From Rufibacter roseus (lineage in GTDB: Bacteria; Bacteroidota; Bacteroidia; Cytophagales; Hymenobacteraceae): 64,000 nt of DNA. A program made the translations under genes and the position numbers. The notes below the pieces were generated by a model, which was given only the letters and a program-made list of their open reading frames with translations, was not told where the DNA came from and made no database searches. Below are positions 4,330-63,945 of the stretch, piece by piece; within the stretch, counting starts at the first letter, position 1; every line of letters begins with the position of its first letter. The stretch lies in the NCBI RefSeq assembly GCF_001647285.1, contig NZ_LRML01000005.1:62001-126000 (forward strand), written 5' to 3'.

Positions 4330-5930
4330 TTAGGCTTCCACTTCGCGGTCTTGCAGACCGTTTACTTCGGTGTAAGCTGATTGCAACTCAATTTCATCGC
4401 CATGCTCATCCATCACTTTAAAGTCAGTGAGGGCAAGCGAGGTATCTTTCATGATATTCACCCACTTCATGTGTTTCAGGAACCATCTCCGTTGCTTAGA
4501 GAGCAGCCCTTTGGTGTAATATGCATGCAAGAACGGATGCACGTACAGCGTTAAATTCTTTTGGTTCTGGCGGGTGAGCAGATCCTCTATGGTTCTGTCT
4601 ATCTCATCCGTTACCAGAATACTGGCAGAAATTGTTCCGCTGCCTCCGCAGGTAGGGCAAACTTCGCCGGTCACAATGTTTTGCTCAGGCCGTACGCGCT
4701 GGCGGGTAATTTGGCAAAGCCCGAATTTGGAAATAGGCAGTACCGTAAACTTAGAACGGTCTTTCTTCATTTCCTCCTTCACCACCTCAAATACTTTCTG
4801 CCGGTTTTCGGCAGATTTCATGTCAATGAAGTCTACTACAATGATCCCACCCAGGTCCCGTAGGCGCAACTGTCTTGCCACCTCTTTTGCCGCGGTTAGG
4901 TTCACATTCAGAGCGGTGGCTTCCTGATCCGTCTCGGAGTTGGATTTGTTTCCGCTGTTTACATCTATCACGTGCAGGGCCTCGGTGTGTTCTATCACCA
5001 GATATCCACCGCCCGGTATGCTAACCGTCTTCCCAAACAGGGATTTCAGCTGCTTCTCGATGTTAAAGTGTTCAAAGGTCTTAACCTTGCCTGTATAATG
5101 CTTTAGAATATTAAGCTTATCTGGGGCAATGGTCTCTATGTAAGTTTTAGTTTCATCGTAAAGACGTTCGTCGTCTACTACAATGTTGTCAAAACTCTCA
5201 TTGAGAATGTCTCTCAATATGGAGGATGAGCGGCCTAGCTCCCCAATTACCTTGTCGCGCTCCTTAGCGGTACGCAGCGTGGCAATTCCTTCTTCCCAAG
5301 TGGCCAGCATCGAGCGTAAATCCTTGTCCAGTTCCGCCACTTCGCGCCTTCGGCCACTGTGCGAATGATGACGCCAAAATTCTCTGGTTTAATAGAGGTA
5401 ATGAGGCGTTTCAGTCGGGTACGTTCCTCTTTGCTCACAATCTTCTTTGACACGCTTACCGTGTTAGAAAAAGGCACGAGCACTAGGTAACGGCCTGCCA
5501 GGGAAATCTCGCAAGAGAGCCGGGGCCCTTTGGTTGATATAGGCTCTTTTACAATCTGCACCAAGACCTGCTGCCCTTTTTTAAGGACGTCAGCCATCTT
5601 GCCCAGTTTGTCAATCTCGGGTTCAAACTTAATCGGGCCAAGCTTGGCAGGGGCATTCTTTTGGGTCTGCACCATTTTCACGTATTTGTTCAGAGTTTTT
5701 ATGTTCTCTCCCAAATCGTGGTAGTGCAGGAACGCGTCTTTGGTATAGCCAATGTCTATGAACGCGGCGTTCAGACCTGGCATTACTTTTTTAACGGTAC
5801 CTAAAAAAATATCTCCAACGCTGTAGTTGGTATCATTTTTAACTAAATGATACTCAACCAATCGCTTGTCCTGAAGAAGGGCTATTCGTTCTCCATCTTG
5901 AGTAGAATTAATAATTAATTCGTTACTCAA
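4330..5930 (-). pseudogene. rng: ribonuclease G/E, split by a one-base frameshift
   Basis: Two overlapping frames together spell one RNase E/G-family endoribonuclease of about 533 residues, the usual length in Bacteroidota. The upstream frame (5930 to ~5350) carries the S1 RNA-binding domain, with VGDIFLGTVKKVMPGLNAAFIDIG. The downstream frame (to 4330) carries the catalytic part: HVIDVNSG and GIIVVDFIDM hold the two metal-binding aspartates, and CPTCGGSG holds the zinc-link cysteines. The frames meet at VAEG / VAELDKDL near 5340-5350, where one missing base (a C in GGCCGCGAA would restore it) explains the break. The start appears to be TTG at 5928-5930, since an in-frame stop lies upstream. 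A sequencing error is as likely as a real mutation, because the enzyme is normally conserved. Confidence 0.8.
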
Positions 5931-54973: not shown

Positions 54974-55246
54974 ATGGCAAATAGTGCTACCTACAAAGGC
55001 ATAACCCCTGAATTGTATAACAACCTGCGCGGCAAACTTGGCGCCGCCGGTATTGAGCTACAGGGCAACAGCGGTCGTGTCTCTAAGCAAGGCGTTACCG
55101 CCGACTATGCCTATGAAGAGGCATCACAAACGCTGCAAATCAACAATGTGCAGGTAAGCTTTCCGGCCAGCATGATGTTTAGCCCAGACAAAATCATCCA
55201 AAAAATAAATGAGGCTGTGCGTGGTGCCGGCGGACAAGTAGCTTAA
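54974..55246 (+). CDS. small hypothetical protein
   Basis: A 90-residue soluble protein I do not recognise. It begins YKGITPELYNNLRGKLGAAG, has a central beta-rich stretch (ADYAYEEASQTLQINNVQVSF) and ends in a helix and Gly/Ala tail. It has no signal peptide or cysteines. The layout (helix, strands, helix) and a good start context suggest a real gene. It is followed 104 bases later by another small gene on the same strand. Confidence 0.6.
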   Translation: MANSATYKGITPELYNNLRGKLGAAGIELQGNSGRVSKQGVTADYAYEEASQTLQINNVQVSFPASMMFSPDKIIQKINEAVRGAGGQVA

Positions 55247-60396: not shown

Positions 60397-63300
60397 ATGA
60401 AAAGAAACTTACCCCGCTGGGTAATCCCGCTTTTACTTTACACCAGCTTTTTGTGCCCTTCTACCAGTTGGGCACAACTACCTGCTTTACCATCTACACA
60501 GCCTACGCATACAGTATTAGTAGCCGGAAGATGGTCGCCGGGGCAAACGACGGCGGTACCGCTACCGCTACTGCAAAACCAACTGCAAACCGCAGGTAAA
60601 AACAGCACACTTGTATTCGTGGGCAATCCTTTTGCGCCGTTCACGCTACCAGGGGTTGCTTCGTCTGAGCGGCCGCCGCTAGAGGCGCAACTGAAAACCC
60701 AACTAGACTACCTGAAAAACTATCAGGGCCAACTAATTTTTATGCCCGGCGAACATGATGCCAAAGGCCGCGTGGTGCAGGAGGTGCGGAACCAGGAGCG
60801 TTTTATAGAACAATACCTGCAGAAAGAGAATATTTTTCTGCCCGCCAATCATTGCCCAGGCCCAGCAGAGGTCTCCCTCACCGACGATCTGCACTTAGTT
60901 TTGCTAGACCCTCAGTGGCTAATGCCCAACCGCCGCATGGATGAGGAGGAAGAGCTACGGGGGTGCCCCACTGTGGGGGGTACTACCACTCTGGCCGCAC
61001 TAGACGATGTGGTACGGAACAACGAAGACAAAAATTTGCTGGTGGTCATGAATGTATCACCAGAAATGAGCAAGCTGGAGTACCGGGTCATGCACCGTCA
61101 ACTAAACCAGTTCTACAACCAATACAGTGGACTGGTGCACGTAGAAGGAAACTCTTCGGGTTTAGTGCACCAGGTAAAAGACAGCATTCATTATATAGGG
61201 GCTGGCTTGGGCGCTACCAACACAAAGCCCATTAAAGACGGCACCACCGTTTACGGAGAAGTTAAGCCTGGCTTGGTAAAATTGCTCTACTACCCCAACG
61301 GCGAAACTTGGTTGGAAGTCTGGACCGCCCCTGATCTAAACAGTGCCACTGGCCAAGTGGCGCACCGTGCCTTAATTTCTCGCAAACCCACTTTAGAGCA
61401 AATGAAAGAGCGGGTGAGTAAGATGAATCTCAATTTTGAGGGGAAAACCGGTACCTTACCCGCCAGTACCTATTACAACGCCAGCGGTTTCAGACATTGG
61501 CTGCTGGGTCAGAACTACCGCCGAGAGTGGGCGCAGCCGGTCACTTTACCAGTGTTTGACATAGGCGCCATGCACGGTGGCCTTAAGGTCATTAAACGCG
61601 GCGGCGGATTCCAGACCAAATCTCTTCGTCTGGAAGACAGCACCGGTCGCCAATATGTGCTCCGGTCAGTAGAAAAATACCCCGATGATGCGCTGCCCCG
61701 CATACTCAGGGAAACCATTGCCGCCGATGTTGTGAAAGACCAAATATCGGCTTCGCACCCATACGGAGCCTTAGTGGCTGCTCCCCTTGCCGATTCCGTA
61801 GGTGTGTACCATACTAATCCGCAGTACTTCATCATTCCTGATGACCCACGTTTTGGCCGCTATCTCAAAGGCTTCGCCAATACCATTGGTTTGTTTGAAA
61901 CCAGACCAGACGAAGATTTATCTGATATGCGGAGCTTCGGTAACACTGAAAATGCAGTGGGCACCCCTAAAGTGCTCGAGAATATACTGGAGGACAAAGA
62001 TGATCAGGTAGACCAGCTGAGTGTGCTGCGCGCGCGCCTCTTTGACTTTTTCATTGCCGACTGGGACCGCCATGATGACCAATGGCGCTGGGCTGAGTTC
62101 AAGAAAAAAGGCAAAGGGAAAATTTACAAACCCATCCCTCGAGACCGTGACCAGGCATTTTTTGTAAACCAAGGAGTTGTCCCAAACATTGCCAGCCGCC
62201 GCTGGATTCTGCCCAAGGTACAGGGGTTTGACGAGAGCCTGAGAGACATAAAAGGCTTCAACTTTAATGCCCGCCACTTTGACCGTACTTTTTTAACTGG
62301 CCTTGAACGTTGGCAATGGCTGGCTATGGCAGATTCTTTGGAGCGTGAGCTAACTGACGAGGCTATTGAAGCAGCCGTAAAACAATTACCTCCCCCAATT
62401 TATCAACAGTCAGGGGAGTGGCTAACTAAAACGTTAAAAGCTCGCCGTGCCACTATCAAGCGTGACGCAGAGGAATATTATGAGTTTTTGGCTCATAAAG
62501 TAAACGTGGTAGGCACTGACCAAAACGATTATTTCACCATTGAACGCAGCGGCGATGGCTCTACATTGGTGCGCATGTACAAAGACGAAGATGAAACTGA
62601 CACTCCGCTGTACCAGCGCCGGTTCTACCCAGATGAAACCCGAGAAATTAGATTGTACAGTCTGGGAGGCAATGACAAAATCGTAGTCACAGGTACTGCG
62701 CCAGAAGCAAGCCGACTACGCATCATTGGCGGAGACGGAGAAGACATCATCACCGACAGTTCCTCGGTAGAGGGCTTGCGCCGGCTTACCTATGTTTATG
62801 ATACTTCTCAGGGCAACAAACTAAATCTAGGTTCTGAGGCACGCAACCTTACCAGCAAGCGCCCTCCTACCTATGACCGCCTCGGTTATAAATACAACTA
62901 TCTAGGCCCACTAGCCTCATTTGAATATAACCGCGACGACGGCTTCTTATTAGGAGCTGGGGCGCTGCTGAAAACGCAAGGCTTTCAAAAAGAGCCTTAT
63001 GCCATGATGCAACGGCTTGTGGGAAGCTACGCCTTTAACACCCAATCTTTTTTGATTGATTATGCCGCACATTTTCCGCAACTGCGGCTAGGCCTAGACC
63101 TAAAGCTTAACGTAAACTGGAAAAGCCCCGGCTTCTCTGAAAACTTCTTTGGGCTGGGCAATGAAACGCCTTATAACCCTGACATAGAAATTGAATACTA
63201 CCGCTACCGGTCTGCCCAGTTTTACGCCAATGTGCTAGTGGGCCGTAAACTCAGCGAGTATGAAACCATTTTTGTGGGGCCAGCCTATCAAATGGTGAAT

Positions 63301-63945
63301 GTTGAGCGCACCCCTGGCCGTTTTCTGCCCGTACAGCCCAACGAAAACTCACAGCTAGCAGGTTATTATGAGCGCCATAACTACGCCGGTGCCAGAATTG
63401 AATACGTATTAGACTCGCGTGACATACCTAATCTTCCGGCCAAAGGGGTTTACTGGAAAGTTGCCGCCGATCTGCTTGATGGCACCAACCAAAGTTCCAA
63501 CAACGTGGCCATGGTTCATTCGCAGTTCGCCATTTATAGAACGCTTAGAGTTCCGCTCAAGCTCACGCTGGCTACCCGCTTTGGCGGCGGCCACACATTT
63601 GGCGACAACTACGAGTTCTTTCAAGCCCAGGTGCTGGATGGCCCAACTACGCTGCGGGGGTACCGCCGCAACCGTTTCAGCGGGCAAAGCAGCCTCTACA
63701 ATAACACTGAGGCCCGGCTACGGTTGTTCAGCTTCACCACGTATCTGTTCCCAGCCTCAGTGGGCGTATTTGGTTTTCATGACATAGGCCGCGTTTGGGT
63801 AGAGAATGAAACCTCTAACAAGTGGCACAGGGGCTACGGCGGCGGCGTTTGGTTGGCCCCGCTGAACCAAATCGTTATTTCGGCAGGCTTTGCCACCTCT
63901 TCAGAAGAAAACCTGATTCTGGTTCGGGCAGGGTTCCTGTTCTAA
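60397..63945 (+). CDS. phosphoesterase-like / kinase-like / Omp85-barrel fusion protein
   Basis: A 1182-residue outer-membrane protein with a signal peptide (ending SWAQ near residue 27). Residues ~35-340 look like a calcineurin-type phosphoesterase that has lost its metal ligands: the GNHD motif reads GEHD, and the HH and GHxH motifs are absent. Residues ~365-800 are the CotH/FAM20-like kinase module shared with the 53.2 kb gene (DWDRHDDQW, Asp555-His559; YKPIPRDRDQAF, Asp583/585). Residues ~840-1182 form an Omp85/BamA-type barrel, with LRGYRRNRF at 1086-1094 and a terminal phenylalanine. Barrel and phosphoesterase calls are firm by motif; the kinase-like call is inference. Confidence 0.72.
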   Translation: MKRNLPRWVIPLLLYTSFLCPSTSWAQLPALPSTQPTHTVLVAGRWSPGQTTAVPLPLLQNQLQTAGKNSTLVFVGNPFAPFTLPGVASSERPPLEAQLKTQLDYLKNYQGQLIFMPGEHDAKGRVVQEVRNQERFIEQYLQKENIFLPANHCPGPAEVSLTDDLHLVLLDPQWLMPNRRMDEEEELRGCPTVGGTTTLAALDDVVRNNEDKNLLVVMNVSPEMSKLEYRVMHRQLNQFYNQYSGLVHVEGNSSGLVHQVKDSIHYIGAGLGATNTKPIKDGTTVYGEVKPGLVKLLYYPNGETWLEVWTAPDLNSATGQVAHRALISRKPTLEQMKERVSKMNLNFEGKTGTLPASTYYNASGFRHWLLGQNYRREWAQPVTLPVFDIGAMHGGLKVIKRGGGFQTKSLRLEDSTGRQYVLRSVEKYPDDALPRILRETIAADVVKDQISASHPYGALVAAPLADSVGVYHTNPQYFIIPDDPRFGRYLKGFANTIGLFETRPDEDLSDMRSFGNTENAVGTPKVLENILEDKDDQVDQLSVLRARLFDFFIADWDRHDDQWRWAEFKKKGKGKIYKPIPRDRDQAFFVNQGVVPNIASRRWILPKVQGFDESLRDIKGFNFNARHFDRTFLTGLERWQWLAMADSLERELTDEAIEAAVKQLPPPIYQQSGEWLTKTLKARRATIKRDAEEYYEFLAHKVNVVGTDQNDYFTIERSGDGSTLVRMYKDEDETDTPLYQRRFYPDETREIRLYSLGGNDKIVVTGTAPEASRLRIIGGDGEDIITDSSSVEGLRRLTYVYDTSQGNKLNLGSEARNLTSKRPPTYDRLGYKYNYLGPLASFEYNRDDGFLLGAGALLKTQGFQKEPYAMMQRLVGSYAFNTQSFLIDYAAHFPQLRLGLDLKLNVNWKSPGFSENFFGLGNETPYNPDIEIEYYRYRSAQFYANVLVGRKLSEYETIFVGPAYQMVNVERTPGRFLPVQPNENSQLAGYYERHNYAGARIEYVLDSRDIPNLPAKGVYWKVAADLLDGTNQSSNNVAMVHSQFAIYRTLRVPLKLTLATRFGGGHTFGDNYEFFQAQVLDGPTTLRGYRRNRFSGQSSLYNNTEARLRLFSFTTYLFPASVGVFGFHDIGRVWVENETSNKWHRGYGGGVWLAPLNQIVISAGFATSSEENLILVRAGFLF

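Follow-up and report, generated by a model that had tools for sequence, protein, structure and literature searches.

Omp85 barrels are known assembly and secretion devices whose N-terminus is periplasmic, and a POTRA domain is present in most, not all, of their subfamilies. An Omp85 subfamily without an N-terminal extension has been described, as has a 'Metallo' subfamily that was called a metalloprotease fusion conserved at the genus level (Heinz and Lithgow 2014; PMC4104836). The 'Metallo' proteins share a PF00149 phosphoesterase and an Omp85 barrel with the family studied here, and very probably are its intact members. In contrast to that description, which mentions no kinase-like domain, the present family has a middle region with a kinase fold and is spread across the phylum, and the protein examined here (the query) carries a dead phosphatase. 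PlpD of Pseudomonas, the best studied enzyme-Omp85 protein, also has an N-terminal enzyme on an Omp85 barrel, but this enzyme is a patatin lipase and the protein has a POTRA domain; it retains the enzyme in the periplasm despite an earlier claim of surface export (PMC11116518).

Several further systems resemble single parts of the query. CotH shares the kinase-like fold and a similar order of the catalytic Asp and the DxD motif, but has no barrel. PI4K-II shares the fold at ~10% identity and is a eukaryotic lipid kinase acting on the cytosolic side, and HipA, which also shares the fold, is a cytoplasmic toxin whose HipA_C family is not matched by the query. The purple acid phosphatases and GAP50 resemble the N-terminal domain; the intact relatives of the query have all five motifs of these enzymes, including GDxxY, whereas the query has lost the site.

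Domain architecture and the outer membrane barrel

The query is encoded in a window of 64,000 nucleotides, which is the whole stretch of DNA analysed, from Rufibacter roseus (Table 1). A preliminary description made from the DNA alone had recognised three parts in one 1182-residue chain. These parts were borne out, with their motif columns conserved over 95 relatives: the chain runs from a phosphatase domain whose metal site has been lost, through a kinase-like fold with a conserved site and a small solenoid, to an Omp85 barrel. Full-length orthologues were found in 15 of 15 genomes of the same genus at 67-73% identity, and the closest named relatives of the middle module were Rufibacter proteins (75% identity). 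In Pfam, the barrel alone was matched (PF01103, residues 902-1167, above the cut-off). The NCBIfam search returned just Omp85 models under the cut-off and one chance match, the whole protein had no match among PDB sequences, and PADLOC gave no defence-system match. A plasmid search returned five distant matches, with annotation that was hypothetical or absent.

Table 1. Window coordinates of the query, its parts and a neighbouring paralogue
Feature	Residues	Position	Strand	Basis or remark
Whole ORF, ATG start	1182 aa	60397..63945	+	signal peptide, degenerate phosphatase, kinase-like domain, solenoid, Omp85 barrel
Signal peptide, read as SPase-I type	1-27	60397..60477	+	sequence reading
Purple-acid-phosphatase-like domain, degenerate	~30-330	60484..61386	+	alignment, family profile; 1/8 metal ligands kept
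Protein-kinase-like domain	~352-700	61450..62496	+	AF2 model, fold search
Gly-rich loop GGGFQT	402-407	61600..61617	+	G403 in 60/60 HMM-found members
K427 of RSVEK, probable nucleotide-binding Lys	427	61675..61677	+	Lys in 60/60 HMM-found members
DWDRH, probable catalytic loop	555-559	62059..62073	+	D555 60/60, D557 59/60, R558 59/60, H559 58/60
DRDQAF, probable metal-binding (DFG-like) site	583-588	62143..62160	+	D583, D585 60/60
Small beta-solenoid, GGxGxD-type repeats, kinase-to-barrel link	~701-830	62497..62886	+	AF2 strands
16-stranded Omp85 barrel	835-1182	62899..63942	+	PF01103 E 2e-12, 16 modelled strands
LRGYRRNRF, Omp85 loop-6 type motif	1086-1094	63652..63678	+	sequence
Stand-alone kinase-like + solenoid paralogue, without phosphatase or barrel	538 aa	53163..54779	-	38% identity in alignment

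A full-length model of the query reached a pLDDT of 86.5 and a pTM of 0.75, with the placement of the domains relative to each other uncertain, and contained 16 barrel strands from residue 835 to 1180. The best match to the barrel was the TamA barrel (4n74; Z 26.8, rmsd 2.9, 290 residues). LRGYRRNRF had earlier been proposed to be an Omp85 signature; the Pfam match, the strands and the TamA similarity all agree with this, and R1087, R1093 and G1096 were invariant in the 64 full-length members of the family alignment. No POTRA domain was matched in the query by Pfam.

Estimates of dN/dS, which are rough as synonymous changes were near saturation for many pairs, were lowest for the kinase-like domain (median 0.074, the most constrained part), followed by the barrel (0.114) and the dead phosphatase domain, whose median of 0.136 (~0.14) is near that of the barrel and indicates purifying selection, and were highest for the signal peptide (0.45, the least constrained part). 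Where the query has its SPase-I-type signal peptide, an intact paralogue in the same genome, L034, reads as lipobox-like (LQSC).

Given that the N-terminus of Omp85 barrels is periplasmic, and with PlpD as a precedent, a periplasmic enzyme is the default reading, by which the kinase-like domain should face the periplasm. The kinase-like and phosphatase-like parts could instead be exported through the barrel, as in type Vd-like autotransport, and act outside the cell. This corresponds to the preliminary description's inference of a barrel that presents the enzyme. The order of enzyme, beta-solenoid and C-terminal barrel does resemble that of autotransporters, and the GGxGxD repeats of the solenoid, with their weak RTX matches, are typical of proteins whose folding takes place in extracellular calcium. 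However, the RTX matches were far under the cut-off (4 of 95 members, best E 0.022) and PlpD, for which export had been claimed, keeps its enzyme periplasmic, so we regard surface export as unlikely and retain the periplasmic orientation as the default.

The kinase-like domain

An AF2 model of residues 346-830, built from the 95 aligned relatives, had a pLDDT of 91.8 and a pTM of 0.92. Foldseek matches at E <= 0.001 were nearly all protein-kinase-like (CtkA, PI4K-II, HipA, CotH and Rio2), with CtkA (E 7e-7) and HipA (E 1e-5) among the best. The kinase-like module of the preliminary description is thus recovered as a kinase-like fold in the predicted structure. In VIA-align the best match was PI4K-II beta (Z 14.9, rmsd 5.0, 264 residues aligned), followed by CotH (5jda/5jd9; Z 14.6, rmsd 4.2, 251 aligned), CtkA (Z 13.7, rmsd 4.6, 235 aligned), HipA (Z 11.1) and a FAM20-type Golgi casein kinase (4kqa; Z 10.8). 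Since Z differences within one unit are ties, PI4K-II and CotH are indistinguishable as matches and CtkA is close behind. The DWDRH and DRDQAF motifs had also been read as a sign of kinship with CotH/FAM20-type kinases; the motifs are in place and conserved, but the domain is no closer to CotH or FAM20 than to PI4K-II, CtkA and HipA.

Profile comparisons gave a similar picture. The CotH family PF08757 was not matched by the query and reached only E 0.098 in one of the 95 relatives, and the search that included HipA (PF07804) assigned no Pfam family at all to the kinase-like domain of the query. Kinship with CotH or HipA was also tried with hhalign and rejected, at Prob 0.7% and 0.1% respectively, compared to 2.7% for a control against the phosphatase profile. 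The CotH profile alignment, though insignificant, falls on the catalytic motifs, and a PDB profile search with the kinase-like domain returned two weak matches, one of which was CtkA (E 0.46). No Pfam or NCBIfam model covers the domain, and it is best treated as a family of its own within the kinase-like fold.

A set of 80 family loci was found by peptide patterns that contain the catalytic motifs. As this biases them towards these motifs, conservation of the kinase site was recounted on 60 high-scoring members found by profile, 12 of them phosphatase-less members chosen by size, so that their share represents no rate. In addition to the residues in Table 1, D550 was invariant and E501 was present in 57 of these 60. 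The Gly-rich loop, K427, D555, D557, D583 and D585 were kept in 63 of the 64 full-length members of the alignment. The nucleotide-binding Lys, catalytic Asp and metal-binding Asp are probably as assigned, judging from motif order and conservation, and the active site is apparently intact.

Kinase-fold enzymes with other chemistry exist, such as SelO and SidJ, and the domain might likewise be another kind of transferase, acting by AMPylation, polyglutamylation or lipid phosphorylation rather than as a protein kinase. PI4K-II, the structure that it matches best, is a lipid kinase, and in one cluster (L041) stand-alone phosphatase and kinase-like paralogues lie together with diacylglycerol kinase and phosphatidate phosphatase genes. 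However, the PI4K-II score is tied with that of CotH, the difference being less than one Z unit, and the linkage to lipid genes is a property of the paralogues and not of the query; we consider this reading less likely than not.

The degenerate phosphatase domain and its intact paralogue

The family profile of the N-terminal domain matched the purple acid phosphatases 1war (2e-6) and 1ute and GAP50 (3tgh; 4e-10) in the PDB. A Pfam search found no phosphoesterase (PF00149) in the query, while the same search matched two relatives, L034 and L022. L034 is a full-length protein of 1248 aa encoded in the same genome (C1:118228-121887) that is 42% identical to the query and, in addition to its Pfam Metallophos match, carries every purple acid phosphatase motif (GDxG, GDNIY, GNHD, VxxHH and GHEH). 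The losses of metal ligands first noted from the sequence proved exact when compared to L034: GNHD is changed to GEHD (residues 118-121), HH to MN (218-219) and GHxH to GNSS (251-254). The query furthermore has Arg for Asp in motif 1 (GRWS, R45), Asn for Asp in motif 2 (GNPFA, N77) and Ala for the purple-acid-phosphatase Tyr (A80), and its stretch from HH to GHxH is 32 residues long, compared to a family median of 80. Across the five metal-ligand motifs it therefore retains one of eight ligands, H120, and no Tyr. These results identify the query as a degenerate homologue of the 'Metallo' group, without a Pfam match to the PF00149 domain of that group.

The loss of the metal site is common to the same-genus orthologues that were read, to Adhaeribacter and to the related genus of L020 and L039, which form one fully supported clade. 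In a related genome (G001), the intact-type paralogue is split into three frames of 835, 386 and 138 aa (contig C83:21232-24874). Across the family, all eight ligands are intact in 40 of the 47 profile-found members bearing a phosphatase domain, the Tyr of GDxxY is present in 76 of 78 intact members, and the state of the site, intact or not, has changed at least 14 times on the family tree.

The domain of the query might still be hydrolytic through a rearranged site, as it is under purifying selection and H120 remains. Against this, the query has lost seven of the eight ligands, the Tyr and the greater part of the active-site loop, as have the other genus members read, and we consider residual hydrolysis very improbable.

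Family, gene neighbourhood and proposed function

A kinase-like module and a metal-less phosphoesterase on an Omp85 barrel were correctly recognised at the outset, but the query is not the one-off fusion it was then taken for, since the family spans the Bacteroidota. Of 395 sampled Bacteroidota genomes, 143 had the kinase-like domain in a profile search, as did 74 of 171 genera; one family locus is labelled as a Chlorobiota MAG (L077). The forms seen were phosphatase-kinase-solenoid-barrel (~1200-1300 aa), kinase-solenoid-barrel (~860-950 aa), stand-alone kinase-solenoid (~530 aa) and stand-alone phosphatase (~410 aa). In the same-genus loci that were read, the query and the stand-alone paralogue of the window (Table 1) stay linked, with no more than a few kb between them. 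Next to the stand-alone kinase-like gene, seven loci, which extend to another genus, keep a gene for a 90-aa protein (MANSATYKGITPELYNNL...; window 54974-55243, + strand) with no Pfam match.

Low-scoring phosphatase-less members (among L235-L248) have kinase-like sites that are partly or largely degenerate, so kinase activity is not universal in the family. Such members, the repeated loss of the phosphatase site and the clear Omp85 barrel would suit a BamA/TamA-like assembly or translocation factor whose soluble domains recruit or recognise substrates without catalysis. The missing POTRA match in Pfam argues against this, as does the retention of the kinase-site Lys and Asp wherever a phosphatase domain is present, save in one D557G lineage, and we find a purely non-catalytic role for the query quite improbable.

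The neighbours of the query (vsr, a TlpA-like protein, a metallo-beta-lactamase-fold protein, PRC-barrel and SIMPL) gave no clear lead. Elsewhere in the phylum, the family gene has a conserved setting that recurs over many Bacteroidota families: an HD-PycTM protein was encoded in 44 of the 80 family loci, from 35 genera, an SdiA-regulated/phytase-like protein, usually immediately upstream of the family gene, in 28, a class III cyclase resembling PycC in 20 and PPK1 in 17. In a fresh set of 20 loci, HD-PycTM was found in 14 and the SdiA-regulated/phytase-like protein in 13. L034 sits in this conserved setting (HD-PycTM, DUF6268, PPK1) and the query outside it. These neighbours have phosphoryl and cyclic-nucleotide chemistry as a common theme, which is in keeping with a kinase-phosphatase but points to no particular substrate.

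Other features of these genomes were also recorded. A ~785 aa protein with no Pfam match recurs in the conserved setting (L052-L131, L250-L269). Stand-alone phosphatase and kinase-like genes lie within ~20 kb of each other in most family genomes examined; in the query's own genome (C38:208187-218956, partly L035), L041 and L042, the phosphatase is ~6.5 kb from a divergent stand-alone kinase-like pair. The diacylglycerol kinase of the L041 cluster is YegS-like and its phosphatidate phosphatase is of the APP1 type. In the window itself, two overlapping ORFs in different frames (4330-5930, - strand; 227 and 336 aa) are apparent halves of one ribonuclease E/G gene, read as a frameshift or sequence error.

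Two ideas linking locus and phosphatase state were rejected. Intact members are in the conserved locus more often than degenerate ones (44/49 vs 13/28; Fisher 7e-5), but independent tree pairs gave a median p of 0.63, which does not support a locus that preserves the phosphatase. A histidine-phosphatase gene directly follows the family gene in L054, L055, L072, L100, L105, L106, L109, L119, L120, L123 and L125. The scored loci are degenerate, but they represent two clades only and none of eight fresh degenerate loci had the gene; replacement of the dead phosphatase in trans is a lead only.

We think it somewhat probable that the query is an outer-membrane phosphotransferase with a periplasmic kinase-like domain, that most of its relatives are kinase-phosphatase pairs, and that its dead phosphatase has been kept as a non-catalytic module. 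What goes beyond the computed features (catalysis, orientation towards the periplasm, the donor and substrate, and the role of the dead phosphatase) is inferred and would fit together as follows. The 16-stranded barrel would anchor the protein in the outer membrane, and the short solenoid would hold the kinase-like domain at the periplasmic face, where it may move a phosphoryl (or nucleotidyl) group onto an envelope component, protein or lipid. In most relatives the purple-acid-phosphatase-like domain probably acts on the same substrate class, which would make the family a kinase-phosphatase pair in one chain. The ancestor shared by Rufibacter and Adhaeribacter would have lost the metal site, and the dead domain would persist without catalysis, probably to bind substrate or to serve as a scaffold. 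ATP is not expected in the periplasm, which raises the question of the phosphoryl donor. Tentatively, the family may be one of phylum-wide outer-membrane kinase-phosphatases that write and erase phosphate marks on envelope components, drawing on a donor that is not cytosolic ATP; the query would be a kinase-only descendant whose phosphatase has become a conserved binding domain.

A full-text literature search, with most subscription journals and all preprints outside its coverage, found no description of the family's kinase-like domain. What is new here is this unreported domain and the dead phosphatase of the query; the phosphatase-barrel fusion is already published. We are not aware of any enzyme of this type in the outer membrane of bacteria. 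The phosphatase-barrel relatives appear in the literature under the label of a metalloprotease fusion. An Omp85 barrel with a kinase site that is apparently intact would put this scaffold to a new use. The phosphatase has been lost repeatedly while the kinase was retained, and the same genome holds a paralogue with both sites intact; together these provide a natural experiment.
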